Virus record (IMG/VR): IMGVR_UViG_3300031857_018627
Span: 1-32,592 of that record
DNA from: a virus
DNA: 32,592 nucleotides
Direction: 5' to 3' (one strand)
In this document: positions 1-32,521 of the stretch, in pieces
How the letters are laid out: each line of letters begins with the position of its first letter
Numbering within the stretch: the first letter of the stretch is position 1
Notes under the pieces: model-generated
The model's input: only the letters and a program-made list of their open reading frames with translations
Databases searched by the model: none
Told to the model about the DNA's origin: nothing
Made by a program: the position numbers and the translations under genes

Positions 1-610
1 TTGCCGCTGCTTCAACTTTATCTAAATCTGCATCATATTTTCCTTCTGCAATTGTTCCTTCGTTTGGATATGCTTTATCAACTGCATTAAAGAATTCTTT
101 CTTTTTTTCATCTGAATCTAATTCAGCGGGTGAATTAATTCCGAATTTATCCATTACACCTTTGAAAACTTTTTGGTATTGAGTCATTTCTTCCTCTGTC
201 ATTTCCATCTTAGTTCTCAATTTATTTAAAGATGCCGCCAAATTCATTTTATCTAAACCTATTGCATCGATAACTCTAGCTATAATTTGTAATTTTTGTT
301 GATTATTTATCTTAGCATCTTTCATTCTATCAGTTGCCTGATCAAGTTTAGTTGATATTCCTGCTGGTATATTTGCAGTATTCACATCAGATGCTGCTTC
401 TTTATGGATTTCTTTTAATCTCTCAGATACACCATTCCAAGCCTTTTCAACTTTATTAAAAAAGTCTTTCTTTTCATCATCAGATTGGAAATCAGCGGGT
501 GAATCTACTCCATGCTTTTTAAGCATAGCCTGAAAAAAAGATTGATAATCCTTTTCTTCTTGTACAACCTCACCAACCAATGCTTTTAATTGTTCTCTAG
601 TTATTTTCAT
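1..610 (-). CDS. Partial scaffold/core-like protein with an internal repeat (cut by left edge)
   Basis: An open frame of 203 codons starts at the ATG at 610 and runs off the left edge with no stop. It begins MKITREQLKALVGEVVQEE. Residues 25-58 (FFQAMLKKHGVDSPADF then DEKKDFFNKVEKAW) and 148-181 (VFKGVMDKFGINSPAEL then DEKKKEFFNAVDKAY) are a clear internal repeat, about 123 residues apart. The rest is helical and charged. Its position after portal and two core-like genes suggests a prohead core or scaffold protein. I cannot tell its full length. It begins 5 nt after the previous stop. Confidence 0.7.
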   Translation of the reverse strand, partial: MKITREQLKALVGEVVQEEKDYQSFFQAMLKKHGVDSPADFQSDDEKKDFFNKVEKAWNGVSERLKEIHKEAASDVNTANIPAGISTKLDQATDRMKDAKINNQQKLQIIARVIDAIGLDKMNLAASLNKLRTKMEMTEEEMTQYQKVFKGVMDKFGINSPAELDSDEKKKEFFNAVDKAYPNEGTIAEGKYDADLDKVEAAA

Positions 611-11660: not shown

Positions 11661-12975
11661 TACAATACGATTTTGTTATTAATTGCTTTACGGTATCTAC
11701 TTCAGTATTTAGATGATTAAAAGATAATAATTTCATTTGATTATATAATAATACATCTTCAAATTCTCTAAGTTGTTCTAACAGTAATTCAATTGGTATA
11801 TTAGAAATTCTTATGATTTCTTTTACTATTTTTTCCAAACGAATTCTATCATCCAATTCTTCATCATATCTTTCATCTATGAATCCGTCAAAAGTTTTAA
11901 ATCCCATATTTCTTATTTCTCTTAAATAATAAGGAGGCCCAACAACTAAAAAGGGTTGGAGATACATTATAGGTTTAAATATTTTTTCAGATATAAAACC
12001 TTGTCTTTTAAAAAATATAGTATCACTTATTAAACTAACTACACTTTTTTGATATGGTCTTATATCCTCATATCCATATCCACTTATTCTAAAATTTGTT
12101 TCAAAATCTACATTTTTTTCTGGCAATGATGTGAATAGTAAATAATCATCCCAGAATCCCAAATCTTTTAATTGATTTTCATAATCATATTTAACACTCC
12201 CCAATAAATCATAAAATTTTGGATTATATGAAATTAAAAATTTATCAGCAATGTTATTTTTATATAATTCTGAAATTACCTTTACTCTATGATGATGAGG
12301 ATATTGATTAAAACTTAAAAAATGAAATTCTTTTTCAATAGGGTTGAATATATCACTAATATGATTTTGCTTTAAATTAAGTTGAAAATATCTACTACTT
12401 CGATTTAGATAATAATTAAATCTAATAAAAGATACATTTTTTGATTCATATTTTGAAAAATTATTTAAATAATCATTATATAAAAATATAATTTTTTTGT
12501 AAACTATATTTTTTAATATTTCTTCGATAAAATGGTCTTCTAAATGACCTTCATGTGAATAATTTATTACGATAGTTGCATTTATTTTTTTTAATACTTC
12601 AAATACGCTTTTATCTAATTTAATTAATTCATGCTTAAAATAATCTATATGACCAAATGGTTCTATTACAAATAATAACTTTCTATGTTTAAATTTATGT
12701 TCATTATTTAATATCTCTTCTAATGATATTCTATTAATTGTTATTTTAGTTTGCTGGTCATAACCGCTATTTACAATTGATTGAAATCCTAAACTATTAC
12801 CTAATACACTAATATTATTACCAAACTTTGAAAAAAGTTCTTTTGTTAATAATCCATTATCATTTGAATTATTTTCAATTAACCATTTTTTTGAAAATTC
12901 AAAGACACTATTTGGTTGGCAATTTGGTAGGATAAGGCCATTTATTTTATTTTGATAAATAAGATTAAGTTCCAT
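11635..12975 (-). CDS. Glycosyltransferase-like protein, family of three in this window (copy C)
   Basis: This 446-residue protein is related to copies A and B by FHFLSFNQYPHHHRVKVISELYKN-type sequence (FLxxN....HR), SLISDTIF, FISEKIFKPIMYLQPFLVVG and GFKTFDGFIDERYDEELDDRIR near the C-terminus. The N-terminal 180 residues are unlike the others, and the last third is best conserved, as expected of a nucleotide-sugar-binding domain. The codon use is extremely AT-rich, like the rest of the block. It overlaps the E1-beta-like gene by 11 nt and the SGNH-like gene downstream by 26 nt. Function as a glycosyltransferase is inferred, not demonstrated. Confidence 0.55.
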   Translation of the reverse strand: MELNLIYQNKINGLILPNCQPNSVFEFSKKWLIENNSNDNGLLTKELFSKFGNNISVLGNSLGFQSIVNSGYDQQTKITINRISLEEILNNEHKFKHRKLLFVIEPFGHIDYFKHELIKLDKSVFEVLKKINATIVINYSHEGHLEDHFIEEILKNIVYKKIIFLYNDYLNNFSKYESKNVSFIRFNYYLNRSSRYFQLNLKQNHISDIFNPIEKEFHFLSFNQYPHHHRVKVISELYKNNIADKFLISYNPKFYDLLGSVKYDYENQLKDLGFWDDYLLFTSLPEKNVDFETNFRISGYGYEDIRPYQKSVVSLISDTIFFKRQGFISEKIFKPIMYLQPFLVVGPPYYLREIRNMGFKTFDGFIDERYDEELDDRIRLEKIVKEIIRISNIPIELLLEQLREFEDVLLYNQMKLLSFNHLNTEVDTVKQLITKSYCSEDKKNLL

Positions 12976-13513
12976 AATACAATTCAGGATACTCGACTAA
13001 ACAATAAATACCCTTATTACTCATTGCATATTTATAACTTAACTCAATATCAGATGGAGTTTTTAAATCGTGAAATTCTATATTTTTACATAATGATTTA
13101 AATTCCTCAATGTAGTTTCCTTTATGTTGATGGCCTGGATCTAATGGCTTATCAGATCCCTTTCCTAATCTTATGATTAAATGTGGTTCGAATTTACTAT
13201 TATCCATTAATTTTATTTTATCAACGTGATTTATTAATTGATTAGCTGCTGATAAAATAAAATCCCATCGTGGATAAAATGTAACCACTAATTTTCCTGC
13301 TAAAGCCAATCCTAAACTCATTCCCATTTGAGTTTCTTCCATAACTGGTAACTCAATCATTAGATTTTTATCCACCTCATCTAATGTAGTACTCATAGGA
13401 TTACCTCTATACACTATTTGTTGTCCAATAAAAACTATATTATCTTTCTTAGATAATTCATTCATAGCATTTGTTAATGCATCTTTATATGGAGTATATT
13501 CTGGTTGACTCAT
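12965..13513 (-). CDS. TPP enzyme beta-like subunit (pyrimidine-binding half only)
   Basis: This 182-residue protein matches the pyrimidine-binding domain of E1-beta subunits: RGNPMSTT (36-43), ELPVMEETQMGMSLGLALAG (54-73, with E59/E60 as candidates for the Glu that activates thiamine) and SAANQLINHVDKI (88-100). I chose the ATG at 13513 because it forms an ATGA overlap with the upstream stop and the family starts here; a longer frame starting at 13582 would add an unlikely basic extension. Typical E1-beta is about 325 aa; the C-terminal transketolase domain is missing. It is the expected partner of the alpha-like protein at 20401-21030. Confidence 0.75.
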   Translation of the reverse strand: MSQPEYTPYKDALTNAMNELSKKDNIVFIGQQIVYRGNPMSTTLDEVDKNLMIELPVMEETQMGMSLGLALAGKLVVTFYPRWDFILSAANQLINHVDKIKLMDNSKFEPHLIIRLGKGSDKPLDPGHQHKGNYIEEFKSLCKNIEFHDLKTPSDIELSYKYAMSNKGIYCLVEYPELYYGT

Positions 13514-14412
13514 AAAATATATTTTATTAATTCTTCGTTTACAAATTTTTTGTTTAATATCGATGATGGATGTCCGAACCAATCGTATTCACCACTCAAA
13601 TTTTCACTAAAAAGAACTTTTTTTAATCCGCTATAATTATCTAAATCTTTTTGTTTTTTGATTGAATATTCATATAATCCACCTTTTTTTAAACCCTCAT
13701 CTTCATAAAACCAAAATTTATGAAATGGAACTTTATCCAAATAAATTGAAAAGAATTTACTTTGATTATAGTGATAATCTAATCCTTCGTTCAACCAAAT
13801 TTCACCGTCATATACATTGACAGTAAAAAATTCAGGTTCATAAAAAATATCTTTTATTGTAAAATAATTATAATCAATATTTTCTTTATCCAAATAATTT
13901 GATAAATCGATTACCGTTTCAATAAATGAGTATGAATGTTGCTTACTTAATTTAAGGTGATGAGTTTTAAGTATATTATCAATTCCAATATACTTTGAAT
14001 TATTTACTTCATAATATCCACCCGTCAAAAACCAAAATTCATCTTTATATTCAATAGGATTTGGTAAATAATTATTTGTATGTGAGCCTGTTTCTAATTC
14101 ACCTTTGTAATCAGTAATCAAAAAAGAACTCCTATAAGGTTGAGTCCATTGAGCAAAAACTTTATGGATAGTACCACCATTTTTTTTAATGTACTCAACC
14201 CAATAAGTTATAGTTCTTTTAATTGTATTATTATCATTAGTTGGATTTCCTAAATTTAGAACAATAAAATCATCTCCCAGTTTATATTGTAACCACTCAG
14301 GCCATTGCCAACTCTCTCTATCATTTCCTTTTTGTAAATGATTTAATGGTTTTAAATTTGTAAATGAACACCCACTACAAATGATATATTTCTTATCCTT
14401 TAAGATATTCAT
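13510..14412 (-). CDS. SGNH-like phage protein (copy 2 of SDR-SGNH pair)
   Basis: This 300-residue protein is homologous to that at 15346-16248. It has YIICSGCSFTN (GCSFT 14-18), WPEWL, NLGNPTND (53-60) and a C-terminal FGHPSSILNKKFV block. The Ser of GCS and the His of GHP are the likely SGNH-type residues. Both copies are exactly 300 residues but have diverged strongly in the middle (aromatic and acidic residues dominate). It ends in an ATGA junction with the TPP beta-like gene, which fixes the true start of that gene at 13513. The biochemical role is not known. Confidence 0.6.
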   Translation of the reverse strand: MNILKDKKYIICSGCSFTNLKPLNHLQKGNDRESWQWPEWLQYKLGDDFIVLNLGNPTNDNNTIKRTITYWVEYIKKNGGTIHKVFAQWTQPYRSSFLITDYKGELETGSHTNNYLPNPIEYKDEFWFLTGGYYEVNNSKYIGIDNILKTHHLKLSKQHSYSFIETVIDLSNYLDKENIDYNYFTIKDIFYEPEFFTVNVYDGEIWLNEGLDYHYNQSKFFSIYLDKVPFHKFWFYEDEGLKKGGLYEYSIKKQKDLDNYSGLKKVLFSENLSGEYDWFGHPSSILNKKFVNEELIKYIL

Positions 14413-19158: not shown

Positions 19159-20416
19159 TTGCTATTTTTTTAAAGTATTTTTTACAACTCTCCCTTTTCC
19201 ACAAATTTAAAAAGTGGCATTGATTATGTTTTAATATATCTTCTGCTTTTTTATATTGCTCATTTAAATTTATTCCATCTAATTCCTTAATGAGAGAAGT
19301 TACCAACGCCATTCTTTCCATTGGCTCATAAATATCATCATAACTCTCATCCCACAACGAATCAAAAGTTTCAAATCCAAAACTTTTAATTCTTTCTAAG
19401 TGTTTATATGGAGCCAAAAATACACCTAAATGTAAATTAACAAATGGTTTCAAACTTTTTTCACTTATATGCTCTTCATTATTTTCAAAAGAAGTTTCGG
19501 TTATTAAACTAATAAATGAATTTTTATATGTTTCTATGTAATGAGTTGATTTAGTATCGCCAAAAAAGTTAAATAAATTTTTTGAATAGGGTTCATAATT
19601 ACTTTTCTTTTTAGTATAAAAAAAGTATTTTAATTCATTATGATGATTTTCAAGTTCATTTCTATTAAAATAAGCTGAAAAATGCTCTATACTAAAAATG
19701 TTTTTACCATTTTCATCTGATTCTTCTCCAAATAAAGTAGTGAATTCATAAGGAGAAAATAATAAAGACCAATCGGTATTGTAAATAGATTTATTTTTAT
19801 ATAATCTAGCTAAAAATGCAATTCTATGTGCTTTTGGAACTCTGTTTAAACACAGAAACTTAAATTTTCTTTCAATCTCAGGTTCAAAATTCGGCAACTC
19901 AAATCTATATCCTAAATCATTTATTTTATTTGATTCCAATGCTTTATGAACAACTAATGACGTATGCTCTAACAACCAGTCAGAAATATTAATATTCATA
20001 CCTACATCTCCGATTGAATCTTTGTAGTATGAAAATAAATTTTTATTAGCAAAATTTAAGTAAAATAAAGTTGGATCTAAATTGTGTGTTTTTATTAAAT
20101 CATAAAGTTTTTGGAAAAAATCAAAATGATTGCCACCACCCTCATGCTCCCTTAGTAGTAAAATTTTTATTTTTTTACCAAATAATAAATTTAAAATTTG
20201 TTCCGAAAAAAAACCTTCTCTGAAAATTGAATAAAAATCGGTGTTCAAATCTATTGGAAAATAGATATTTTGATACAATTCAATCTCTTCTATTCTTATA
20301 TTATTTGTATCTATGTATTCACTACAATAAGGAAACCTACAACCAAATCTGTTACCATTTGGTGTAGGCCCCAAGTTATTCCACTCTTCAAATAATAAAT
20401 TTAAAATGCTATCCAT
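19148..20416 (-). CDS. Glycosyltransferase-like protein, family of three in this window (copy A)
   Basis: This 422-residue protein is related to those at 17157-18380 and 11635-12975. Shared features are a central KFKFLCLNRVPKAHRI stretch (FLxxNxxxxxHR), SLITETSFENN, the HISEKSLKPF segment and GFETFDSLWDESYD near the C-terminus. An EN...(S/T)EK pattern followed by a Pro/Phe strand resembles the nucleotide-sugar site of GT-B enzymes such as GT10 fucosyltransferases, but the match is weak and made by eye. It overlaps the TPP gene by 16 nt and precedes the sulfotransferase-like gene with 11-nt overlap. Cytoplasmic glycan transfer is an inference. Confidence 0.55.
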   Translation of the reverse strand: MDSILNLLFEEWNNLGPTPNGNRFGCRFPYCSEYIDTNNIRIEEIELYQNIYFPIDLNTDFYSIFREGFFSEQILNLLFGKKIKILLLREHEGGGNHFDFFQKLYDLIKTHNLDPTLFYLNFANKNLFSYYKDSIGDVGMNINISDWLLEHTSLVVHKALESNKINDLGYRFELPNFEPEIERKFKFLCLNRVPKAHRIAFLARLYKNKSIYNTDWSLLFSPYEFTTLFGEESDENGKNIFSIEHFSAYFNRNELENHHNELKYFFYTKKKSNYEPYSKNLFNFFGDTKSTHYIETYKNSFISLITETSFENNEEHISEKSLKPFVNLHLGVFLAPYKHLERIKSFGFETFDSLWDESYDDIYEPMERMALVTSLIKELDGINLNEQYKKAEDILKHNQCHFLNLWKRESCKKYFKKIANGM

Positions 20417-21030
20417 TTTCCGCTTCCGTAATGTGGATATTTTGATTTGTATGTATAATGAATTACGTCTTCAGGTATTTCTCTTTTTTTATTCCACGTT
20501 GATTCAGTTGGAGTATAAGTTGAAACCCCATTATCTTCTACTACAAATACTATCGGTAAATCAAAGTTTCTTGCATATTTATGCGTTTCGTAAAACAATC
20601 CACTTTCAAAACTCATATCACCAACAAATACCCAAACTTTTTCCCCACTACCATTTTGTTTTAATCCCATAGCTACTCCCAATGCAATAGATAATGTACC
20701 ACCAACTATTGCAGATGCATAAAATTTTTGAGATATATCAACCATAGTAATTGATTTACCATCTTTTATTAATTCAGTAGCATACTCAATCGATATCCCT
20801 TTTAGAGCCCAATGATAATGAGAACGCCATGTACTAAATACCCAATCTTCTTTTCCAATTCTTTTGAAAATTTCTATAAGTTGAGATTCGTTTCCATTTG
20901 ATAAATGAACCGGCCCTCTGATTTTACCACCTTCCCAAATATCAACTATACCCTGTTCAAAAGCAATTAATTTTTCTTCTGTCCAATCAATATCTCTAAC
21001 GATTGGATATTTTTCTAAATTTTTTATCAT
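20401..21030 (-). CDS. TPP enzyme alpha-like subunit (E1-alpha/transketolase N-terminal type)
   Basis: This 209-residue protein resembles the pyrophosphate-binding half of 2-oxoacid dehydrogenase E1-alpha subunits. It has HLSNGNE (42-48), FSTWRSHYHWALKG (65-78, like the usual STYRDHGHAL region), GGTLSIALGVAMG (110-122) and the thiamine-diphosphate motif running from GDMS (137) to DNG (166-168). E1-alpha subunits are usually about 320 aa or more, so this is a minimal form that ends soon after the cofactor motif. Its partner is probably the beta-like protein at 12965-13513, about 7 kb downstream in the same operon. A two-carbon transfer or 2-keto-acid decarboxylation is expected; the substrate is unknown. 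Confidence 0.75.
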   Translation of the reverse strand: MIKNLEKYPIVRDIDWTEEKLIAFEQGIVDIWEGGKIRGPVHLSNGNESQLIEIFKRIGKEDWVFSTWRSHYHWALKGISIEYATELIKDGKSITMVDISQKFYASAIVGGTLSIALGVAMGLKQNGSGEKVWVFVGDMSFESGLFYETHKYARNFDLPIVFVVEDNGVSTYTPTESTWNKKREIPEDVIHYTYKSKYPHYGSGKWIAF

Positions 21031-22356: not shown

Positions 22357-23305
22357 ATCCTAAAGGAAATCCGTTTCTAAATTCAGAACCCATTTTCGGA
22401 ACTATCATTTGATAACCCTGAATTAATTGTTTTATACCTCTATCTAAATCCCACTCTGGTTTCCATCCAGTTTCCTCAATTTTTGCGTTTGATACAATAT
22501 AATCCCTTTTATCAGGATCTTCATAATAATCGTTATATGATACCGCAAAATCGTTCACGTGGGATTGTATCTTTTCTAACAATTCTTGCTTTGATAAGTT
22601 AGCTGAACTCAACCCTACATTAAATACTTCACCCTTATAAAAGTCATAACCGTATAACATAAAAAGAAAAGCCGATGCAACATCTTCAACGTGAATAAAG
22701 TTTCTTTTGAAATTTCTCTCAAAAACAACAATATACTTATCGGTAATTGCTTTATAAGTAAAATCGTTTACCAATAAATCGGTTCTCATACGAGGTGATA
22801 CACCAAATACTGTGGCTAATCTAAATGTTATAGCATCAGTTGAAGTTCTTAAAAAGTTCTCAGCATCACATTTTGTTTGCCCATATACTGAAATTGGAGT
22901 AAGAGGGGATTCCTCTGTACATTCAGTTTGTCCCTCCGCTATACCATACCCACTATTTGTGTTTGGGTATAAAATCTTCTTACCTTTACTAAACCTGACT
23001 ATGTTTACTATTTGTTTGAAATTAATTTCTTTTGCTAATTGTGGATCCGCTGCACAAGCTGGAAACCCAACTATTGCAGCTAATGGTATAATTGCATCCG
23101 CCTCCTTACACAATTTTTCTAAAAGTGATTCGTTTCTAACATCACCATAAATGAACTTAAAATTAGGATTAGATGTATATTGTAATAACGATGTTTGATT
23201 AAATAATAATTTATCCAATACAACTACTTCATCACCTGCATTCAATAATTTACCAACAATAACCGATCCTAAGTATCCTGCTCCTCCCGTAATTAATACT
23301 TTCAT
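22340..23305 (-). CDS. NAD-dependent sugar epimerase/dehydratase (extended SDR)
   Basis: This 321-residue extended short-chain dehydrogenase/reductase is of a size usual for nucleotide-sugar epimerases. It has the Rossmann motif GGAGYLG (7-13), a DVRN cofactor segment (55-58), a Ser/Thr-rich active-site strand (NTNSGYG, 115-121) and the complete YxxxK pair (Y141, K145 in SVYGQTKCDAE). The expected reaction is epimerisation or dehydration of an NDP-sugar in the cytoplasm. Unlike the two SDRs further down the operon, its catalytic Tyr is intact. It overlaps the next gene by 17 nt. UDP-glucose 4-epimerase-like activity is plausible, but the exact substrate is not readable. Confidence 0.88.
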   Translation of the reverse strand: MKVLITGGAGYLGSVIVGKLLNAGDEVVVLDKLLFNQTSLLQYTSNPNFKFIYGDVRNESLLEKLCKEADAIIPLAAIVGFPACAADPQLAKEINFKQIVNIVRFSKGKKILYPNTNSGYGIAEGQTECTEESPLTPISVYGQTKCDAENFLRTSTDAITFRLATVFGVSPRMRTDLLVNDFTYKAITDKYIVVFERNFKRNFIHVEDVASAFLFMLYGYDFYKGEVFNVGLSSANLSKQELLEKIQSHVNDFAVSYNDYYEDPDKRDYIVSNAKIEETGWKPEWDLDRGIKQLIQGYQMIVPKMGSEFRNGFPLGYANNT

Positions 23306-24036
23306 TCTCCTTCTAATTTATTAATAATGTTGCTTTGAATATCATTTACATTAAAATCCTGATATAGAAGAGCGTGATTTCCGTTTCCACTCCCATCCCA
23401 AACTTTGAATCGATTTATATTTTCTAATGTAAATTTATATTTTGCTAATGTAAATCTTCTTACTATATCAGAATTAAACAAATCAATTTCTTCTTTGTTT
23501 AAAACTTTTTCCATAATAATAACATCATCTATCCACCCTTTATACCACCAACTAAATTCTTGCAAATGCGGTTCTATATAATTTGGAGCAGCGGCTCCGA
23601 TAAACAATGGGGTATTTTCATAACTCACAACTGGATAAGTAATAGGTGCTTCCTTTGATTCACCATTATAAGTTACTCGTAGTATTTTGTTTGTATAATC
23701 TACTGAAAAGAATATTTCTTGCCATTCTCTTTCAAAATCATAAATAAAAGTAATATTAATGTTTTCTGCATCTAATGGTTTACTCATCCACAGTTGTGCA
23801 CTCACAACATAGAAATCATTTTCCTTATTTACAAATACACCGGAGTGTAAACCACATTTGGAAAATATACCATATATAGCATCACCCCTATCTTCAGTTC
23901 TTTCTATTTTAAATTTGCTATAAATTGTAAAATCTTTATGAAAGAAAGTTTTTAAATTTGGTTTTTTTGAAGTATTAAAGGTTGATTGATCCCAAACTTT
24001 ATAACTAATATCTTTATTAAAATACAAATGACTCAT
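23302..24036 (-). CDS. LamG-like (concanavalin-fold) protein paired with radical SAM, copy 2
   Basis: This 244-residue beta-sandwich-like protein has FTIYSKFKI (36-44), SVDYTNKILRVTYNG (111-125), TPLFIGAA (142-149), WIDDVIIMEKVL (168-179) and WDGSGNGNHALLY (213-225). These follow the LamG pattern of a folded jelly-roll with a conserved late strand reading (I/V)DDVxIxxxxL. It is the partner of the radical-SAM gene upstream (1-nt overlap) and overlaps the following epimerase by 4 nt. It is longer than the first LamG partner and only loosely similar to it. Carbohydrate binding is the usual LamG role but is inferred here. Confidence 0.7.
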   Translation of the reverse strand: MSHLYFNKDISYKVWDQSTFNTSKKPNLKTFFHKDFTIYSKFKIERTEDRGDAIYGIFSKCGLHSGVFVNKENDFYVVSAQLWMSKPLDAENINITFIYDFEREWQEIFFSVDYTNKILRVTYNGESKEAPITYPVVSYENTPLFIGAAAPNYIEPHLQEFSWWYKGWIDDVIIMEKVLNKEEIDLFNSDIVRRFTLAKYKFTLENINRFKVWDGSGNGNHALLYQDFNVNDIQSNIINKLEGE

Positions 24037-25421
24037 TATCTTATACTTTTACATAAGTTCCAAAAATCTTCCAACTCTGGAAATGTTTTTACAAAATCAG
24101 TTCCTCTTCTTCTATCATGCTCACTAAAAAATCTATAAAAATCTTTTCTATCTCTTTTTAATGAATGTTCTTCTTTTGGAGCCACAACTACGTCATAGAT
24201 TCTTCTTAATTTATGAATTTCAACATCAGTATAACCGATTGGATTTTGTGTGCCCAAACTTTCATAGAAATCCATTAATTGAGCCTGCTCAAATACTTCT
24301 TTGTGCCAATCATCAGTAATAATGTTAGCGGCCTGATGGTATGGATGTCTAAGATATGAGCTATCTAACCCGATTGGATAAAACCAATATCTATCCGGAT
24401 TAGTAAATTCTTTCTTCAATTGATATACATCTTTAATTAATCCTTTATATGATGGGATACTTAATACATTATATGTTCCCATAATAGAGATTGTTAGTTT
24501 TGGTATTTCCTCTAGTAATTCAGCACATCTATCATACCATTGATTGTAATCAAATCCGTTACGAATATAATTTGCTTGTTCACCCCAACCATCACACGAA
24601 GTGAAAATGATAAACTCTCTCACTAATCCATCACTACTTATTCTTTTAATTTTTTCTTTTGCCTGTTGGTATAATTTTTCAGGTGCTCCCAAATTTGAAT
24701 TAATAGCCAACTTTAATTTTTGGTTAGGGTTATCAATTACATAATCAAATACCTTAAATGTATCTTTATGAAGTAAAGGTTCTCCACCAGTAATTCTAAA
24801 GTTAAGAAGGTCTTTATATAGGTTTGGCCACCATTTCCAAAATGCCTCTACATAGGGATTATGTTCGGTTTGTTTAAAGGGTTGTTTGCCTTCTTTAATA
24901 ATATGGTCTAATCCATTATGACGAGTTGAAGTTGGGTAAGCTCCAAATTGCTCAATTTCTTCCCACCATTGTGTGGAAAATTGAGGATAGCAGTAAGAAC
25001 ATTTAAAATTACATGCATTACTGAATGATACCTCCACATAAGAAGGGTTCACATCATCCATATAAGATGAATTTTTAATTTCTTCAAAATGAGGCCATGC
25101 CCATTCTTCCGCAGATTTAAATGTTCTATCGGAGAACTCATTAGAATTATCTTCTACCTTCCAGCAATAATCACATTCAGTTGGTCTTAACCCCTGCAAC
25201 ATCTCTCTCCTTAATTCCTTTTTATATTTGGTATTATGAAGTGCAGATGGATTGTTTTCTAATTCTTCTGGAACAATTTTGTGAATACCTGGATGGTGAC
25301 AACTGTGATTTTGCCCAATATGAAGATGAAGAGTGACTTGTTTCCATTTTGCTAAACAAAATCCTCTTCCAACTGAATTGAGTTTTCTTCTTATTTCACC
25401 ATATCTTTCTGTATTATCCAT
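24036..25421 (-). CDS. Radical SAM protein with twitch-like C-terminus, copy 2
   Basis: This 461-residue paralog of the gene at 26082-27476 has the same architecture: NHSCHHP (38-44), GLRPTECDYCW (77-87), the radical-SAM motif CNFKCSYC (C137, C141, C144) and GGEPLL in FRITGGEPLLHKDTF. The two copies share most motifs but differ widely between them, so both are probably maintained by selection. It begins inside the end of the preceding LamG gene (8-nt overlap) and ends on the first base of the next LamG gene. A peptide, sugar or other modification reaction is possible; the sequence does not show the substrate. Confidence 0.82.
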   Translation of the reverse strand: MDNTERYGEIRRKLNSVGRGFCLAKWKQVTLHLHIGQNHSCHHPGIHKIVPEELENNPSALHNTKYKKELRREMLQGLRPTECDYCWKVEDNSNEFSDRTFKSAEEWAWPHFEEIKNSSYMDDVNPSYVEVSFSNACNFKCSYCYPQFSTQWWEEIEQFGAYPTSTRHNGLDHIIKEGKQPFKQTEHNPYVEAFWKWWPNLYKDLLNFRITGGEPLLHKDTFKVFDYVIDNPNQKLKLAINSNLGAPEKLYQQAKEKIKRISSDGLVREFIIFTSCDGWGEQANYIRNGFDYNQWYDRCAELLEEIPKLTISIMGTYNVLSIPSYKGLIKDVYQLKKEFTNPDRYWFYPIGLDSSYLRHPYHQAANIITDDWHKEVFEQAQLMDFYESLGTQNPIGYTDVEIHKLRRIYDVVVAPKEEHSLKRDRKDFYRFFSEHDRRRGTDFVKTFPELEDFWNLCKSIR

Positions 25422-26082
25422 ATTTGTTTGGTCTGGACTTTGCTACAAAATCCATTATTTTATCGTGTTTAAATTTAACTGGCTCTGATATAAATGCGTG
25501 ATTACCATTACCACTATTATCAAATATCTTAAAGTTTGTTTTTTCAGAAGTATCTAAACTACTAAACAAACTATCTTCCTGTAATACTTCTGTTGTTCTT
25601 AGATTAAATTTTATTTCATGATCTTCCAACAATCTATCATACAATACAACTAAGCCCAACTCTCCATTTAAAATGTTCTTTTCAGTTGTTTTCTCATGTA
25701 CATTATCTGATAAGAAAGTAAAATAATTATCTTCTTTTACAACATTTTCAAAATTACATTTGAATTCATATTCAATTTCAGTATTTAAATCCGTATAGGT
25801 AAACTTTTGTTTTCTATTGTTTATCCTTACAAAAAAATCAAATGTATTACCTACTTCACATACTATATTTGAAAAGTATTCATCTCCAACTTTATATTGA
25901 AAGTGAATCTTACCTCCTTCGATTATAAGTGTTTCAGAAGAAAGATTTCTTCTAAACAAATAACCAAACGGTTTTTGAATATCATAACTACCTTTTAACC
26001 TAAGAGAATATCCATCATTAAGAGATGAAAAATTCTTAATATTTGTGCTATTAGTAGATTTATTTGGTATATAAAATATCAT
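25414..26082 (-). CDS. LamG-like (concanavalin-fold) protein paired with radical SAM, copy 1
   Basis: This 222-residue beta-rich protein shows LamG-like signatures: NGELGLVVLYDR (139-150), the common closing strand of such domains, and DNSGNGNHA (188-196), a motif also present in the next LamG gene and, in altered form, in the GT7 insertions. LamG domains commonly bind carbohydrate or stabilise multidomain enzymes. No enzymatic motif and no signal peptide are seen. It is sandwiched between two radical-SAM genes with overlaps of 1 and 8 nt, which suggests co-production with the enzyme upstream. A role as substrate, chaperone or targeting subunit is possible; none is demonstrated. Confidence 0.65.
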   Translation of the reverse strand: MIFYIPNKSTNSTNIKNFSSLNDGYSLRLKGSYDIQKPFGYLFRRNLSSETLIIEGGKIHFQYKVGDEYFSNIVCEVGNTFDFFVRINNRKQKFTYTDLNTEIEYEFKCNFENVVKEDNYFTFLSDNVHEKTTEKNILNGELGLVVLYDRLLEDHEIKFNLRTTEVLQEDSLFSSLDTSEKTNFKIFDNSGNGNHAFISEPVKFKHDKIMDFVAKSRPNKYG

Positions 26083-27476
26083 TACGCTTTACCTTTTCTA
26101 CATTTTTTATAAAATTCTTCATATTCAGGAAACACCTCTAAGAAATTAGTTCCTCTTCTCATATCATGATGTCTTACAAATATAAAGAAATCTTTTCGAT
26201 TTTTCAAGAAAGTGGAATCATCATCATGATTTTTCATCCATTCTGCAATTCTTTTTACTTTTGTGATTTCAATATCAGTAAATCCATACCCATCATCTCC
26301 CACTCTAACTTGCTCATAAAAATCCATTAATTGAGCTTGAGAATAAACCTCATCTATCCATTCATTATCTAATACCTTTACACTTTGATGTGGAGGCCAA
26401 CGAAGATATGAACTATCTAATATAATCGAACTACCATAATATCTTTCCGCACTATGGTATTCTTTTTTAATTTGGTACACATCTTTGATTAAACCTTTAT
26501 ATGAAGAAACTGATAGAGCATTGTAAGTACTCATTATTATAATCGTAAGTTTTGGATTCTCCGATAATAATAAATTAACTCTATCCATAAACAAATTATA
26601 ATCAAAACCATGTCGAATATAATTTGCTCTCTCGCCATGTGCATCGCAGGATGTGAATAAGATAAATTCGTTCACTCTATCCTCATCCATTAACTTTTTA
26701 ATCTTCTCTCTAAACTCATTGAATATCTTTTCAGGAGCATTTAAGTTAGTGTTAATAGAAAGGTTCAATGCCTTATTAGGATTCTTTGATTCATTAATAA
26801 AATCCAAAATATCAAAAGTATCTTTGGCTAATAAAGGTTCACCACCTGTAATTCTAAATGTATGTAAATCCTTATATAAATCAGGCCACCATTTCCAAAA
26901 TGCTTCCACATAAGGATTTCTTTTGTTATGTGGTATAGGCATTTGATCAGTTGTCTTCAAATAATCTAAGTTATTGAAATTAGTTGAAGTAGGATACGCA
27001 CCGTGCTGTTGGATTTCATCCATCCATTGGGAACTAAATGCAGGCCCACAATATGAACACTTAAAATTACAAATGTTAGAGAATGATACCTCAACATATT
27101 TTGGGTTTATATCTTTAATACCCTTAGTTTTTAATACTTCATCGAAATGTGGTAAAGACCACGGCTCCGCTGATTTATAAATTCTATCTGAAAAATCGGT
27201 TGAATTATCTTCAATGTTCCAGCAATAATCACATTCTTTAGGCCTTAAACCTTCTAACATTTCTCTTCTTCTATTTTTCTTAAAAGAAGTGTTATGTAGA
27301 GCAGATGGATTTTGTGCAATCTCCATCTCCGAAATTTTATGTGTTACCGGGTGATGACAACTATGATTATGCCCAGTTTGTAATTGTAATGTAACTTGAG
27401 TCCATTTCGCCAAGCACATACCCTTACCAACTGCATTTAATTTTTCTTTTGTTGCCTGAAAGTGTTCGTTTAACAT
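26082..27476 (-). CDS. Radical SAM protein with twitch-like C-terminus, copy 1
   Basis: This 464-residue protein has the radical-SAM cluster motif CNFKCSYC (C136, C140, C143), which binds a 4Fe-4S cluster and S-adenosylmethionine. It also has the GGEPLL motif (in FRITGGEPLLAKDTF). The N-terminal region has an unusual NHSCHHP segment (37-43) followed by GLRPKECDYCW (77-87), whose Cys pair may bind another metal or cluster. The C-terminal half fits the twitch or SPASM-lacking type. Its substrate is unknown; relatives are common in marine phages in my recollection. It is followed directly by a LamG-like gene (overlap 1 nt), and the pair is repeated downstream. Confidence 0.82.
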   Translation of the reverse strand: MLNEHFQATKEKLNAVGKGMCLAKWTQVTLQLQTGHNHSCHHPVTHKISEMEIAQNPSALHNTSFKKNRRREMLEGLRPKECDYCWNIEDNSTDFSDRIYKSAEPWSLPHFDEVLKTKGIKDINPKYVEVSFSNICNFKCSYCGPAFSSQWMDEIQQHGAYPTSTNFNNLDYLKTTDQMPIPHNKRNPYVEAFWKWWPDLYKDLHTFRITGGEPLLAKDTFDILDFINESKNPNKALNLSINTNLNAPEKIFNEFREKIKKLMDEDRVNEFILFTSCDAHGERANYIRHGFDYNLFMDRVNLLLSENPKLTIIIMSTYNALSVSSYKGLIKDVYQIKKEYHSAERYYGSSIILDSSYLRWPPHQSVKVLDNEWIDEVYSQAQLMDFYEQVRVGDDGYGFTDIEITKVKRIAEWMKNHDDDSTFLKNRKDFFIFVRHHDMRRGTNFLEVFPEYEEFYKKCRKGKA

Positions 27477-28912
27477 TTACAATTAATTAAAACTGAATTA
27501 TTCCCTATTTCTTCTATATTAAGTAATTCATAGGTTAAATTACTCATACCATCGTTTTTCCAATCATATTTACCCTGCTGCATTTCTAAAATATATCTTC
27601 TTTCATTTCGCGCAGTAGTTTCTCCCTTTGCCCATTTACCATTAACTAACCCTTCGGTTTGATGTGGTAAACATTCAAATCTACCATTTCTTCTATGAGG
27701 AATTACGGTAGATGGTATTTCTATTTTTTCTTTTGTAAAATTAACATTTGTAATTTTACCATTATTTTCATTACCACTTAAATCTTCTAATAGTCCATCA
27801 TTAAAAGAATTAAAATCATAATGAAGTTGTAATCCACTTTGTTCACATTCAAATGGAATATTTTTTATTTCATTATCAGTTAAACATCTGTCATATAATC
27901 GCACTTCCGCAATTTGCCCTTTAAAAAATTTATTTGGAAATGTTTTGTTTATTGAAGGAGATGTTCCTAAATAATAACTCTCACTACCATATCTTTTTAA
28001 ATCACCCGAATATTCCATAGGAGATTGAACTCCTGTTCCGAATCTTGCATCGGTTTCTCTACCATTTAAATAAAAATGAATTTGCTTATTATACGAATCA
28101 ACTTTAAGAGTAACCCATGTCCATAGATTCTCATATCTCTTCATCCACATATATTGCATTTCACCTTCGTTGTTCCATAACATTGAAGTAAAAGCTCTAC
28201 TATTATTATATGAAATACCATAATCATATCCAGGTCTTCTAAATACGGGATATTCCCAAAATCTTCTTTCATTATCACCAATTAGATAGATAGGTATCTT
28301 TTCTTCTTGTTGATGTGCTTTTACTAAAAGTGATAAGGTGTGTGAACGATTACTTAAAAATCTTATTGAACGACTCTGAGGGATTTCAATGAAAGAATTC
28401 TCTCCATTGAAATTTGCTATATCAAATTCATTTTTAGGTCTGATATATGTTTGGTCTGCCATTCCATTAATAGCACATCTCCAAAATAGGTCATCATCTT
28501 CCATACCCCAATCCCAATAATCATTTGAGTAACCATTGGTTTTATAAACCTGTTCTTTTGTAAATAAAACTGCTCCGCCAAAGTATTCTTCATACTTTAA
28601 ATTATAATCAGTTTGTGAAATATGAACCGCCAAATGCTGTGGTAATTCAGGATTATAACTATAATCACAACTATCATCTTCCGGTATCATATCGATATCA
28701 TGCCATACAATATAATCACATCCATCTTTAAATGCAACATCCGCTGCAATGTTTTTCATCTTACCTCTATTAAAAAGTAAGTTATCACATTGGTGTGCAA
28801 AATAAATTTTATGCTCAATTCCTCTATCTTCTAAGAATTTATGAACTCTCGGAGAGAATTGTGCTAAATGTTCTTCTCTATTTCTATATGGAACGCAAAC
28901 TCCTAATTTCAT
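27470..28912 (-). CDS. GT7 galactosyltransferase-like protein with inserted LamG-like domain, copy 3
   Basis: This 480-residue protein has VPYRNR (7-12), FNRGKMKNIA, a DID metal motif (72-74), EYFGG (109-113) and NGYSNDYWDWGMEDDD (126-141), where the first Gly of the usual GWG is Asp. Residues about 165-395 are a LamG-like domain (NLWTWVTLKVDSYNKQIHFYLNG split by my reading, FFKGQIAEVRLYDRCL, LLEDLSGNENNGKI). The C-terminal part resumes the GT7 pattern with GRFECLPH (H417) and GMSNLTYELL (455-464), very close to the end of animal beta-4-galactosyltransferases as I recall them. It overlaps the following radical-SAM gene by 7 nt. The donor and acceptor sugars cannot be read from the sequence. 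Confidence 0.8.
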   Translation of the reverse strand: MKLGVCVPYRNREEHLAQFSPRVHKFLEDRGIEHKIYFAHQCDNLLFNRGKMKNIAADVAFKDGCDYIVWHDIDMIPEDDSCDYSYNPELPQHLAVHISQTDYNLKYEEYFGGAVLFTKEQVYKTNGYSNDYWDWGMEDDDLFWRCAINGMADQTYIRPKNEFDIANFNGENSFIEIPQSRSIRFLSNRSHTLSLLVKAHQQEEKIPIYLIGDNERRFWEYPVFRRPGYDYGISYNNSRAFTSMLWNNEGEMQYMWMKRYENLWTWVTLKVDSYNKQIHFYLNGRETDARFGTGVQSPMEYSGDLKRYGSESYYLGTSPSINKTFPNKFFKGQIAEVRLYDRCLTDNEIKNIPFECEQSGLQLHYDFNSFNDGLLEDLSGNENNGKITNVNFTKEKIEIPSTVIPHRRNGRFECLPHQTEGLVNGKWAKGETTARNERRYILEMQQGKYDWKNDGMSNLTYELLNIEEIGNNSVLINCKC

Positions 28913-30351
28913 AGTTCTACTGAAATGAATTTAGTATTATCACTTAATTGTTTCTCTTCTACTTTTTTATATCTCAATGTGTTCAATCCTTCTATCGAAT
29001 AGAACAACATTTCATTTTTCAATGAATTATATCTTAATTGATTTTGTCTAGTTTCTTCATGTACCCAACGATTACCTTCAACACTATTACTACTATGTTT
29101 TAATGATTTGAAAGAACCATCTTTTTTATATGGAACAACCGCTTCAATTAAAAACTTTTTATTCATCAAAGTATTATTCTGACAATTTACAATCTCTGCA
29201 TCAAAACTATTTCCACTTAAATCAATTAATTTATCTCTTCTAAAATGTTTAAAATCATAATAAAGTTTTAACCACTTTGAAGATTTATATTTACCAAAAT
29301 TATTAAGTAAAGATTTCTTAGCAGATTCTTTATATATTTGTTCTATTTCAGTCTTTGCCAATGTTTTATCAAATACAGCAAACTCATTCATAAAACCTTT
29401 GAAATAATAGTTTTCATAATTTTTAGCGGGATTTGCAACCCCTAAATAGAAATCTTCTACTTTGTAATCATAAAGTTCATCAACATATTCGGCTCCAATG
29501 TAAGTGTTATTGATATATAACTCAATCATTTTATTACGAGGGTTACGATTGATTACTGCGTGAACCCACATATCCGGACTAATATCTGAAACTATACTTT
29601 TAGATTTTTCATCTTTATCCCAAATATCTAATTTAAATCTATTAAAACTATTAAATGATAAAGAGAAATTAAAACCAGGAATAGAGAATATAGTGTATTC
29701 ATCATAATCTCTATTTAAATCATTCACCAAATCATCTGGTTTGAACTTTATTGAAATAGAAAATTCATCTTCAAATATAGGTTTAAAATTTTCAAAAGGA
29801 ATACTGATGAATGAATCTATACCATTGAAATAAAAATAATTTAAATTATATTCCTCATTCTGAATCCCAAATGGTCTGGTATCTAAACTTAGATTACATT
29901 GAATACATCTTTGAAGTAAATCATCATCTTCAAATCCCCATCCCCAATATTCATTAGAGTATCCATTTATTATTTTGAAATCCAATTTATTAACAATAGT
30001 TACACCACCGAAGTAATTGTAAAAACTCTCTTCACCATCAACTTTATTGGCCAAGTGTGTAGGTCTATCACAATATGAATAATCAACCTTAATGGGTAAC
30101 ATATCTACATCGTGAAAACAAAAATAATCAAACTCATTCCCACTTTCTTTATATCCAATGTTTAATAATTTACCTCTATTAAAAGGTTTGTTATCTTTTT
30201 GCTCAATTACAAAAATTTCAAATGGAATTTTCTTAGAGTTTAAATAATCTTCTAAATAAGGAATAAAGACATTAAGATGTGATTCCCTATTTCTGTAAGG
30301 AACTATAACAGCTAATTTCTTTTGTTCTTTCTTATTGTTGTCTTTCATCAT
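28909..30351 (-). CDS. GT7 galactosyltransferase-like protein with inserted LamG-like domain, copy 2
   Basis: This 480-residue protein is the most canonical of the three GT7 copies. Visible motifs are VPYRNR (17-22), FNRGKLLNIGY (57-67), FHDVDMLP (79-86, metal site D81/D83), NYFGG (112-116) and NGYSNEYWGWGFEDDD (129-144), which matches the acceptor and catalytic loop of beta-1,4-galactosyltransferases. Residues about 175-390 are a LamG-like domain (FSISIKF, MWVHAVINRNPRNKMIELYINN, FKGFMNEFAVFDKTL, LIDLSGNSFDAEI). GT7-type sequence resumes at GSFKSLKH (H419 as likely metal ligand) and GLNTLRYKKV (455-464). It overlaps the next GT7 gene by 4 nt (ATGA). A cytoplasmic enzyme is expected, since no export signal is seen. 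Confidence 0.82.
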   Translation of the reverse strand: MMKDNNKKEQKKLAVIVPYRNRESHLNVFIPYLEDYLNSKKIPFEIFVIEQKDNKPFNRGKLLNIGYKESGNEFDYFCFHDVDMLPIKVDYSYCDRPTHLANKVDGEESFYNYFGGVTIVNKLDFKIINGYSNEYWGWGFEDDDLLQRCIQCNLSLDTRPFGIQNEEYNLNYFYFNGIDSFISIPFENFKPIFEDEFSISIKFKPDDLVNDLNRDYDEYTIFSIPGFNFSLSFNSFNRFKLDIWDKDEKSKSIVSDISPDMWVHAVINRNPRNKMIELYINNTYIGAEYVDELYDYKVEDFYLGVANPAKNYENYYFKGFMNEFAVFDKTLAKTEIEQIYKESAKKSLLNNFGKYKSSKWLKLYYDFKHFRRDKLIDLSGNSFDAEIVNCQNNTLMNKKFLIEAVVPYKKDGSFKSLKHSSNSVEGNRWVHEETRQNQLRYNSLKNEMLFYSIEGLNTLRYKKVEEKQLSDNTKFISVEL

Positions 30352-30562
30352 TAGGTCTTTCAGAATCTCTCATAGGTCGAGATACACTTCCTAAGTTTTT
30401 AGCTTTTAAAATTGTGTGGAATTCATGTAAGTACCATTCTACTCTTGTACCCCAAGCTGATTTATCGATTTCAAACATCCAATCGTTCAAATCTCTAAGT
30501 GAAGAGGCTATATCTTCCAGTGCCCTTACTTGTCTTTCTTCCAATGTTTTTTGATCTGCCAT
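30332..30562 (-). CDS. Small hypothetical protein, tandem paralog B (76 aa)
   Basis: This is a paralog of the gene just upstream (30569-30805). It has LEERQVRALEDI, DWMFEIDKSAWG, RVEWYLHEFH and KAKNLGSVSRP in the same order and spacing, then a charged tail (SERPNDERQQ). The pair differs at many positions, so the duplication is not recent. It begins 6 nt after the previous stop and overlaps the following GT7 gene by 20 nt. The function is unknown. Confidence 0.7.
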   Translation of the reverse strand: MADQKTLEERQVRALEDIASSLRDLNDWMFEIDKSAWGTRVEWYLHEFHTILKAKNLGSVSRPMRDSERPNDERQQ

Positions 30563-30568
30563 AATCTA

Positions 30569-30805
30569 TTATTGAGGTCTTTCATTTGATTTATCAGGTC
30601 TTCCAGTATTACCAATGGTTTTAGCTTTGGCAATCATATAGAATTCGTTTAGATACCATTCTAATCTTTCAGACCAGCCTTTAGTATCTAACTCATACAT
30701 CCAATCCTGAATGTTTTCTAACGATGTACCTATTTTTTCAAATGCTCTAACTGCTCTTTCTTCAATATCAATATTTGAAGTTTCGGGTTTTTTTGATGTA
30801 GCCAT
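30569..30805 (-). CDS. Small hypothetical protein, tandem paralog A (78 aa)
   Basis: This 78-residue protein is clearly related to the next gene. Shared features are EERAVRA near residues 16-22, a DWMYELD stretch, a GWSERLEWYLNEF stretch rich in aromatics, a KAKTIGNTGRP segment and a polar tail ending in ERPQ. It is probably mostly helical and soluble. The start has an A-rich leader with no Shine-Dalgarno sequence. I do not recognise a characterised family. Being duplicated between GT7 genes, it may be an accessory or adaptor protein, but that is a guess. Confidence 0.7.
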   Translation of the reverse strand: MATSKKPETSNIDIEERAVRAFEKIGTSLENIQDWMYELDTKGWSERLEWYLNEFYMIAKAKTIGNTGRPDKSNERPQ

Positions 30806-30806
30806 T

Positions 30807-31052
30807 TTATTTGTTTTTTAATTTATTTTCTGTTCTTTTTTTGAAAAATCCTGTTGGGAAAGGTGATTGAGTACCCCCATAATATCCTCTCATTAATTCC
30901 AAAGAAGAATATATAATAGGCATCATATATGAGAAATTATCAATCGTCTTGTTATCTTCAAACGATTCTAATATGTCTGCAATTTTTTCAGCCCTTTCAA
31001 CAATTTCTTCATTGTTGATAATTTGTTTTATTATAGAACTACCTTTATCCAT
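30807..31052 (-). CDS. Small hypothetical protein (81 aa)
   Basis: This 81-residue protein is not recognised. The first half is helical and acidic (INNEEIVERAEKIADILESF). The second half holds YGGTQSPFPTGFF and a very basic tail (KKRTENKLKNK). Its start overlaps the end of the first GT7 gene by 22 nt, and its stop is one base before the next gene, which supports real translation within the operon. It is not obviously related to the next two small proteins, although the three sit together between GT7 copies. Confidence 0.65.
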   Translation of the reverse strand: MDKGSSIIKQIINNEEIVERAEKIADILESFEDNKTIDNFSYMMPIIYSSLELMRGYYGGTQSPFPTGFFKKRTENKLKNK

Positions 31053-32521
31053 TTTGTATTTTCATTTATTTCGTCTTCTGATAAAATTTTGTAATTTAAA
31101 TAATTCAATCCTATCTTTTTAGTATCCACCTTTCCTGTCAAAACCTCTTCAAAGTATATTTGAGAATTTTGAACAATATCTGGATCCCAGCTATAAAACT
31201 TTTCAGTTATTTTATCATCATCATCGTGGATAAGTGATTGATATTTACCCATAATTCTAGATGGTACTGAAAGTTTTGATGTTTTTTCAATAACCGCTTC
31301 TTTTATGAATTTAGAGTATTCGGTAAAATCTAAAGAGTGCACCTTAACATGATTCATTGTCAAAGATGAATCTAATATAAAATCATGATAGATTTTATTG
31401 AAGTTTATATTAAGAACCGGCTCTAAATCGGTATTTTGTTTCTTATTATTATAGCCCTCTAAATAAAGATTATCAATTTCTCTTTGTTCTAAAACATAAT
31501 CAAACATTAAAAGATTAGATAATTTACCCTTATATGGAGATGAATTTAAACTAGCACATCCTATGTAAATTGGTTGATAACTATAATCAATTAACGGTGT
31601 AACAATATATGGCTGTTGGTCGCCTGTGTATGGAACTTTTACACTATTGAGATATAATTCAACTACCTCTTTATTGTAATCAACTACCATTGCAACATGA
31701 TTCCAAACTCCTAATTCATATCGTTTGTATGCAAAACAGTATTGTCTATCATTATCATAAACATTAACTCTAATTGTTCCATCATTTTGCAATGATATAC
31801 CAGTGTTAAATCCAGGCCAACTAACTAAGTATTCTTCTTCTTTAGCAATCTCATCTTTACTAAACCAAAGAGATACACTAAAACTATCTTTTGTTAAATC
31901 CTTTATCTGATTATTCGGAAATATTTTTAAGTATAAATCATTATCTTTGAAATCTATGTATTTTACTCTTTCCGAATACTTTTTATCGGTTATTTTTATT
32001 TTCTCAAATTCATAATACGAGTCTATGCGAGGAAAAACAATTTCTTCATCTAACTCTATATCATTAATTCTACATCTATGAAGTAAATCTAAATCAGCAA
32101 AACCCCATCCATAATACTCATTAGAATACCCATTAACGGCTTCAAAATCTTCTTTAGAGAACATTACTACTCCACCAAAATATTCCAAATATGGGAGTTT
32201 AAATGTGTGCGCAGATACCTTAGTAGCCATGTGTACAGGATAACCTCCAATGTGAATATAATTGTAATCACAATCATCACTTACCGGCAACATATCAATA
32301 TCATGAAAGCAGAAATAATCGAATCCTTCTTTGAATAAAGAGAATCCAATATTACATAACTTACCATAATTAAATGGTTTATCATCAGCCTGTTCAACTA
32401 TAAAAATTTTGTAATCCACATCTTTATTCTTAAAGAATTCTGTCATGTGTGGAACGAAGGTATCCAACTGCTCCCTTCTATCTCTATACGGAACTATTAT
32501 TGCTATTTTAGCACCTGTCAT
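31031..32521 (-). CDS. GT7 galactosyltransferase-like protein with inserted LamG-like domain, copy 1
   Basis: This 496-residue protein looks like a beta-1,4-galactosyltransferase-type (GT7) enzyme, which transfers a sugar from a nucleotide sugar using a metal ion. The N-terminal half has VPYRDR (about 10-15), a DID metal-site motif (74-76), EYFGG (113-117) and NGYSNEYYGWG (130-140). Residues about 180-400 form a LamG/concanavalin-like beta domain (FSVSLWF, GVWNHVAMVVDY, KGKLSNLLMFDYVL). The GT7 fold then seems to resume: GKYQSLIH with H432 at the metal-ligand position, then GLNYLNYKIL and a final WIKVVL strand. The segment after GWG reads FADLD instead of the usual (G/F)EDDD, so two acidic acceptor-site positions are changed. 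No signal peptide or membrane segment is seen. It is the first of three paralogs in the block. Confidence 0.75.
   Translation of the reverse strand: MTGAKIAIIVPYRDRREQLDTFVPHMTEFFKNKDVDYKIFIVEQADDKPFNYGKLCNIGFSLFKEGFDYFCFHDIDMLPVSDDCDYNYIHIGGYPVHMATKVSAHTFKLPYLEYFGGVVMFSKEDFEAVNGYSNEYYGWGFADLDLLHRCRINDIELDEEIVFPRIDSYYEFEKIKITDKKYSERVKYIDFKDNDLYLKIFPNNQIKDLTKDSFSVSLWFSKDEIAKEEEYLVSWPGFNTGISLQNDGTIRVNVYDNDRQYCFAYKRYELGVWNHVAMVVDYNKEVVELYLNSVKVPYTGDQQPYIVTPLIDYSYQPIYIGCASLNSSPYKGKLSNLLMFDYVLEQREIDNLYLEGYNNKKQNTDLEPVLNINFNKIYHDFILDSSLTMNHVKVHSLDFTEYSKFIKEAVIEKTSKLSVPSRIMGKYQSLIHDDDDKITEKFYSWDPDIVQNSQIYFEEVLTGKVDTKKIGLNYLNYKILSEDEINENTKWIKVVL

Follow-up and report, generated by a model that had tools for sequence, protein, structure and literature searches.

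Three phage GT7 glycosyltransferase-like proteins with a LamG-like domain nested inside the predicted catalytic domain

The GT7-LamG-GT7 genes and the position of the LamG domain

The stretch of DNA analysed here (the window, 32,592 nucleotides (nt), IMG/VR virus record IMGVR_UViG_3300031857_018627) carries on its minus strand three genes encoding proteins of the GT7 (beta-4-galactosyltransferase) type, each with a LamG-like domain between two GT7 parts. The open reading frames (ORFs) were found at 27470-28912, 28909-30351 and 31031-32521 (480, 480 and 496 amino acids (aa)), in accordance with the initial annotation, which had been made from the sequence alone. The proteins were assigned to classes A, B and C from a phylogenetic tree, and rows outside the tree by highest identity. 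Residues of the class C protein are numbered from its second ATG, so that H419 counted from the first ATG is H418 here. The insert boundaries were taken from the class C structure model and mapped onto the other two proteins by alignment.

31031..32521, minus strand: GT7-LamG-GT7 protein, class B, 496 aa (ORF, Pfam GT7N/GT7C/Laminin_G_3, model, structure alignment)
32036..32521, minus strand: class B N-terminal GT7 part, aa 1-162, with D74, D76, Y114 and D143
31271..31984, minus strand: class B inserted LamG/pentraxin-like domain, about aa 180-417
31034..31267, minus strand: class B C-terminal GT7 part, aa 419-496, with H432 and G471
28909..30351, minus strand: GT7-LamG-GT7 protein, class C, 480 aa from the first ATG, 479 from the second
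29869..30348, minus strand: class C N-terminal GT7 part, aa 1-160, with D80, D82, Y112, W137, E140 and D141
29137..29862, minus strand: class C inserted LamG/pentraxin-like domain, about aa 163-404
28912..29136, minus strand: class C C-terminal GT7 part, aa 405-479, with H418 and G454
27470..28912, minus strand: GT7-LamG-GT7 protein, class A, 480 aa (ORF, Pfam, class composition)
28439..28912, minus strand: class A N-terminal GT7 part, aa 1-158, with D72, D74, Y110 and D139
27704..28432, minus strand: class A inserted LamG/pentraxin-like domain, about aa 161-403
27473..27703, minus strand: class A C-terminal GT7 part, aa 404-480, with H417 and G455

In all three proteins, Pfam placed Glyco_transf_7N and 7C inside residues 2-172, followed by Laminin_G_3, with every match above the curated cut-offs. 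The Pfam GT7 models stop before the C-terminal segment. The histidines quoted for this segment (H417 in 27470-28912, H432 in 31031-32521 and, from the first ATG, H419 in 28909-30351) were correct, and the G(L/M)(N/S)xLxY motif was found in 3/3 proteins. The LamG stretch between the GT7 parts was likewise present, its size being 238 to 243 residues (163-404 in 28909-30351, 161-403 in 27470-28912 and 180-417 in 31031-32521) and not about 210. Identity to the class B protein was 31% for class A and 33% for class C. Outside the window record, the same N-LamG-C order was observed in at least 209 distinct viral ORFs (one scan behind this count covered the best 80 of 225 relatives), and the arrangement is therefore no chance event.

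That the LamG domain is inserted and not appended, as had been proposed, was borne out by structure models, uninterrupted relatives and profile comparison. AlphaFold2 models were obtained for two of the three proteins, class C from a 122-row alignment (pLDDT 94.5, pTM 0.90) and class B from 60 rows (pLDDT 93.8, pTM 0.89). Using VIA-align, residues 5..479 of the class C model were superposed on 175..398 of bovine B4GALT1 (1tvy; 214 aligned residues, Z 27.9, root-mean-square deviation 2.4) and residues 1..496 of the class B model on 177..398 (214 aligned residues, Z 27.9, root-mean-square deviation 1.9). VIA-align reports end points and counts only, and the skipped residues were deduced from them. 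Because 214 of about 224 chain residues were aligned and the alignment reached the last model residue, the part behind LamG supplies the C-terminal segment of B4GALT1; because the middle of each model matches LamG-type structures separately, the skipped residues are those of LamG. The GT-A fold of B4GALT1 and B4GALT7, including the part beyond the acidic loop, was thus present in both modelled proteins, and in neither did the C-terminal 80 residues form a separate domain.

GT7-type proteins from related loci (numbered with an L) gave the same picture. Among 265 GT7-type ORFs, which come from overlapping loci and are not all distinct, 260 contained the C segment; the gap between the two GT7 matches was 212 to 336 positions in 258 of them, and only 1 and 5 in L027 and L028. 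Further uninterrupted phage GT7 proteins had a gap of 8 (13 proteins) or 25 (L120, a partial match), and no C segment match was found for L114 in the phage GT7 scan. The uninterrupted L027 protein matched B4GALT1 (1tvy) in one piece over chain positions 64-281. The tail beyond the acidic-loop match was measured in 45 GT7 ORFs lacking LamG; it was 62 to 102 residues long in 44 of them and 0 in the remaining one. A profile built from 22 post-LamG segments, none of them from an uninterrupted protein, was compared by hhalign with an alignment of ten uninterrupted GT7 proteins and matched columns 159-232 of 234 (74 columns, probability 98.3, E 1.3e-14).

Read from the alignment, the insert stands where bovine B4GALT1 has a turn, only a few residues long, near P335-G340, upstream of the H347 strand, and H417, H418 and H432 occupy the place of H347. 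The B4GALT1 numbering is our own count, which agrees with the mutant names R228K, W314A, C342T and M344H in titles of PDB entries. Altogether, the results support a single GT-A domain that a LamG/pentraxin-type jelly roll is predicted to interrupt in the short turn leading from the acidic-loop part (W314-E317-D318) to the His347 strand.

A few results weigh against a nested LamG. The Foldseek alignment of the class C model to B4GALTs covered only about 150 columns, all in the N part, and the 75-residue C segment of a window protein, searched against the PDB as one sequence, gave no match. The post-LamG profile found B4GALT1 in 12 of 12 PDB matches (E up to 10), all of them weak (E 0.73-0.95). 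Together with the limited reach of the Pfam GT7 models, the Foldseek and single-sequence results would suit a LamG domain that is merely appended, with the last 80 residues as a domain of their own. This possibility is already contradicted by the alignment of both models with B4GALT1 up to the last residue, by the match of the post-LamG profile to uninterrupted GT7 proteins and by L027, and we regard it as hardly conceivable.

The embedded domains themselves, all above the Laminin_G_3 cut-off, are close in fold to PAPP-A, to pentraxins and to a putative carbohydrate-binding protein. The middle parts of the models, 167..401 in class C and 183..414 in class B, matched 4dqa (Z 22.1 and 21.0), PAPP-A (Z 20.0-22.1) and serum amyloid P (1sac; Z 17.7 and 18.2). 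Many LamG domains have a D-x-S-G-N segment at their front; in the embedded domains it stands behind the jelly-roll core. Since the models align with pentraxins and PAPP-A through this end, the embedded LamG was treated as having pentraxin-type order, and no circular permutation is claimed.

Active-site residues, classes and history of the insertion

The roles of the DxD motif, W314, E317-D318 and H347 are known from work on B4GALT1, where Met344 is a metal ligand beside His347, and Tyr289 has been tied to the preference for galactose (Gal). In 122 homologues, two of them uninterrupted, D252 was kept in 119, D254 in 120, Y289 in 112, W314 in 99, E317 in 108, D318 in 116 and H347 in 110. All eight tested residues (R228, D252, D254, Y289, W314, E317, D318 and H347) were kept in every row of class A (34/34) and class C (57/57), and for this reason these two classes are probably active enzymes. 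D319 was kept in 34/34 rows of class A and 52/57 of class C.

Two features of the residue data weigh against the transferase reading. Firstly, class B has lost much of the site: out of 29 rows, R228 was kept in 2 (Tyr in 23), W314 in 6, E317 in 15, D319 in 1 and H347 in 17, and consequently not every copy need be a transferase. D252 (26/29), D254 (27/29) and D318 (23/29) were found in most class B rows; the window copy keeps the DxD, W314, D318 and H347 positions and carries Tyr in place of R228, Ala in place of E317 and Leu in place of D319. Secondly, the Met344 ligand is replaced, by Ser in 41, Cys in 37 and Leu in 20 of the 122 rows. B4GALT7 also differs at this position, so that Met344 does not define the GT7 superfamily. 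By its residues, class B appears to be drifting or doing another job. Despite the residue loss LamG is retained, as is the fold in the window copy, and class B might be an inactive partner of the other two paralogues.

The class B losses at R228, W314, D319 and H347 could also mean that LamG does the work and that the GT7 parts serve as scaffolds without catalytic activity. We consider this very unlikely, given the complete set of eight residues in all class A and class C rows; moreover, over the 122 rows the LamG columns were less conserved than the GT N part (the GT C part was no better conserved than LamG). The data support the placement of all three genes, as phage paralogues, in the GT7 superfamily.

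For the history of the insertion, trees were calculated by FastTree from rows clustered at 75% (318 reduced to 97; stand-alone LamGs, 54 reduced to 37, two of which are pieces of GT7-LamG genes); L132 was absent from the rows. On the GT-part tree of 97 rows, the LamG state changed at least 3 times by fewest-change count, compared with 20.7 in shuffles. For 74 embedded proteins, the distances between pairs in the LamG tree correlated with those in the GT tree at 0.72, the top of 200 label permutations being 0.18, although this control ignores relatedness and a part of the 0.72 is class structure. In the LamG tree, class A formed one side of a branch with support 99, and embedded and stand-alone LamGs were split with support 98, save for the two GT7-LamG gene pieces. 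As the LamG and GT trees mirror each other, the insertion is, on this phylogenetic evidence, old. A single insertion before the divergence of the classes, followed by duplication, is likely; it is the best fit, yet unproven. In addition to the limits of the permutation control, several points count against it: the LamG rows did not form one clade on the GT tree, which has weak deep forks and, on its well-supported branches, needs at least two label changes; in the LamG tree the labels changed three times for class C and twice for class B. Furthermore, the LamG-less L135, a long branch from a metagenome-assembled genome (MAG) of Planctomycetota, sat inside a LamG clade; if this placement is right, LamG was lost or gained one more time.

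In 126 viral loci (overlapping, with 5 kb flanks), two GT7-LamG genes were found in 53, three in 52, one in 3 and none in 18. A scan of bacterial and archaeal genomes yielded the N-LamG-C order in at least 4 ORFs of three loci (L130, L131 and L132), N and C without LamG in at least 15 distinct ORFs and N alone in at least 11. L130 is a Pelagibacterales MAG contig in which a radical SAM gene adjoins the GT7-LamG gene. On the bacterial MAG contigs L131 (4872-9930) and L132 (400-3038), a gene with a GT2 match stands immediately behind the GT7-LamG-GT7 gene, and in L131 an ABC transporter comes next. The copies in L131 and L132 point to a possible gene transfer between phages and bacteria. No match was obtained when two of the proteins were searched by tblastn against 50,697 records of named phages, and none of the three window proteins was matched to a glycosyltransferase in PHROGs or NCBIfam.

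Gene neighbourhood and candidate targets

The window carries the markers of T4-like myoviruses, a gp20-type portal (Portal_T4, 242.8 bits at 1995-3941) and a T4-type terminase, the latter nearest to that of Flavobacterium phage immuto (57.3%) with Microcystis phage Mel-JY01 close behind (54.9%). Judged by this portal and the terminase kin, the window belongs to a T4-like phage, for which the terminase makes both Bacteroidota and cyanobacteria candidate hosts. Gene neighbourhoods were compared in 31 loci, mostly long contigs and including near-copies such as L004, L009 and L012; Portal_T4 was also present in 24 of these 31 related contigs.

The genes next to the GT7-LamG triplet are listed below; the last line refers to a contig that shares 10,120 identical nt with the window and extends it upstream of the genes, beyond window position 32592.

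26082..27476, minus strand: radical SAM protein with a twitch domain, immediately downstream of the GT7 triplet (NF033640 of NCBIfam, 326.9 bits, cut-off 170)
25414..26082, minus strand: stand-alone LamG-like protein after the radical SAM gene (family hidden Markov model (HMM) E 5e-7, only aa 113-211; no Pfam match at E<=1)
24036..25421, minus strand: second twitch-domain radical SAM protein (NF033640, 326.2 bits, cut-off 170)
23302..24036, minus strand: second stand-alone LamG protein (Laminin_G_3 26.2 bits, just under the cut-off of 27.6; family HMM E 1e-21)
L167 912-9705 and L004 1-4998: stretch preceding the GT7 triplet in the continuing contig

Between the class B and class C genes, 679 nt (30352-31030) contain no ORF of at least 100 aa, and the gap is similar in L004, L009 and L011. 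From 23302 to 27476, radical SAM and LamG genes alternate. Pieces of thiamine enzymes, of the transketolase pyrimidine-binding type and the E1 dehydrogenase type, lie at 12965-13582 and 20401-21030 in a phage carbohydrate cluster.

The GT7-LamG genes are often followed by radical SAM genes resembling the two of the window, and all 54 distinct stand-alone LamG ORFs of the viral loci (one cut ORF excluded) start within 300 nt after a radical SAM gene. This regular pairing, and the presence of PAPP-A and pentraxins among the fold relatives besides a putative carbohydrate-binding protein, would fit a LamG that serves as a protein-docking or oligomerisation module and gathers pathway enzymes (GT7, radical SAM) on one substrate or scaffold. 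Embedded and stand-alone LamGs form separate tree groups, which does not favour one shared docking surface, and we find this explanation rather unlikely.

A tail-fibre gene was often found upstream. The S74 chaperone, which marks the tail-fibre tip, was present in 28 of the 31 contigs. In 25 of them the strand of the GT7-LamG genes carries an S74 fibre gene no more than 10 kb upstream of the first of these genes, compared with 3.57 expected under uniform placement. In the continuing contig, the row before the triplet starts with a 1,878-aa S74 fibre, a 441-aa protein with PTPSPTPAP repeats and a 2OG-Fe(II) oxygenase of the PF13640 kind (prolyl-hydroxylase type), continues with a GDSL protein, a hydroxyproline arabinosyltransferase (HPAT)-like protein and a PF11397 N-acetylglucosamine (GlcNAc)-transferase, which we take to be of GT60 type, and ends with a protein without Pfam match, a methyltransferase, an epimerase and a second protein without Pfam match. 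From the fibre gene to the GlcNAc-transferase, this row resembles an extensin-type hydroxyproline glycosylation line. PF13640 oxygenases were found in 24/31 contigs (22 above the cut-off), counted anywhere in the contig. The PF11397 GlcNAc-transferase was rejected as a general partner, since it was found in only 2/31.

On the basis of these data, we lean slightly towards a joint reading, in which paralogous GT7 phage proteins with an old nested LamG comprise enzymes (classes A and C) and a drifted class B and have a fibre glycan as target. Classes A and C would act as metal-dependent glycosyltransferases moving a hexose, plausibly galactose, onto GlcNAc-type sugar acceptors. The LamG domain would act in cis on the acceptor, holding the glycan or its carrier protein; alternatively, it could gate or limit the motion of the neighbouring loop. 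Class B might be a partner of the other two or have changed its specificity. We infer that sugar may be transferred to virion fibre proteins or else to host glycans, and the most likely target would be a glycan on the phage's own tail-fibre or a fibre-associated protein.

The neighbourhood does not prove the fibre target, and parts of it run the other way. Six of the 31 contigs, a set that includes near-copies, have no upstream fibre gene within 10 kb: S74 lies 20 kb upstream in L020 and only downstream in L049 and L081, and it was not found in L023, L042 and L090. The cluster could instead modify surface glycans of the host, for receptor masking or superinfection exclusion, and not virion proteins. 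Surface modification encoded by phages is a known theme, the window holds sugar epimerases and further carbohydrate genes, and the bacterial copies in L131 and L132 stand beside GT2-match genes, in L131 also near an ABC transporter. The fibre gene upstream in 25/31 contigs speaks against host glycans, as do the Pro/Thr/Ser-repeat protein and the protein-directed glycosyltransferase families directly after the fibre gene in the continuing contig; we see host modification as a possible but lesser candidate.

A more specific form of the fibre target, suggested by the gene row of the continuing contig with its Pro-Thr/Ser-Pro repeat protein, would be a phage line for protein O-glycosylation of tail fibres, in which sugars on hydroxyproline or Ser/Thr are extended with galactose by the GT7-LamG enzymes, an acceptor-binding lectin then lying inside the catalytic domain of the extending enzymes. 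This detailed scheme appears unlikely at present.

Comparison with known systems

The closest characterized relatives are the animal enzymes B4GALT1 and B4GALT7 (CAZy GT7), with which the phage proteins share the GT-A domain (29-35% identity over 193-216 residues, Z 23.5-27.9) and, in classes A and C, the DxD motif, the Trp, the E-D acidic loop and the His metal ligand. Unlike in the phage proteins, the acidic loop and the His of the animal enzymes are not separated by a domain. The phage proteins start at the GT7 motif without a membrane stem, they do not keep the Met344 ligand of B4GALT1, and class B has diverged. Phages carry animal-type beta-4-galactosyltransferase-like proteins that the glycosyltransferase models of PHROGs and NCBIfam missed in the window.

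Lectin domains attached to glycosyltransferases are already known. Polypeptide N-acetylgalactosamine-transferases (GT27) carry a ricin-type lectin of another fold in the same chain, at the C-terminus; both systems join transferase and lectin in one chain, but the GT27 lectin is appended. The LacdiNAc synthases B4GALNT3 and B4GALNT4 are related to GT7. Their PA14 domain is described as a non-catalytic, carbohydrate-type beta-sandwich with a predicted glycan site, which in B4GALNT3 is needed for activity and predicted to lie near the donor site (PMC11254600). The combination of a transferase with a carbohydrate-type beta-sandwich close to the donor site is a precedent in spirit, whereas PA14 is not LamG, has another fold and is not described as nested in the passages considered, and the enzymes are animal Golgi enzymes.

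Among viral proteins, GT7s of giant viruses were found in BFVD (Mimivirus LCMiAC01, a Megaviridae sample and Aureococcus anophagefferens virus; 40, 35 and 29% identity, 158-170 columns); these viruses infect eukaryotes. TMq did not exceed 0.40 in any of the 50 listed BFVD rows, as it would in a two-domain match, a result that holds for families represented in the structure lists. In the literature searched (titles and abstract openings, with few subscription journals or preprints), no LamG nested in a GT7 domain was described. GT7 and LamG are both known, and their nested arrangement appears to be new: in three paralogues, and in many uncultured phages, the catalytic domain seems to be broken by a whole lectin-type domain only a few residues ahead of a metal ligand. 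The nearest comparison is with uninterrupted GT7 proteins of phages (L027, L028, L115-L118 and L120-L129) and of bacterial loci with N and C segments only, which have the same GT7 N and C segments. In the uninterrupted phage proteins, only 1, 5 or 8 positions separate the N match from the start of the C match (25 for the partial match of L120), at the site that LamG occupies in the window proteins. These insert-less relatives can serve as controls in a natural test of how a binding module embedded in the fold affects acceptor choice.

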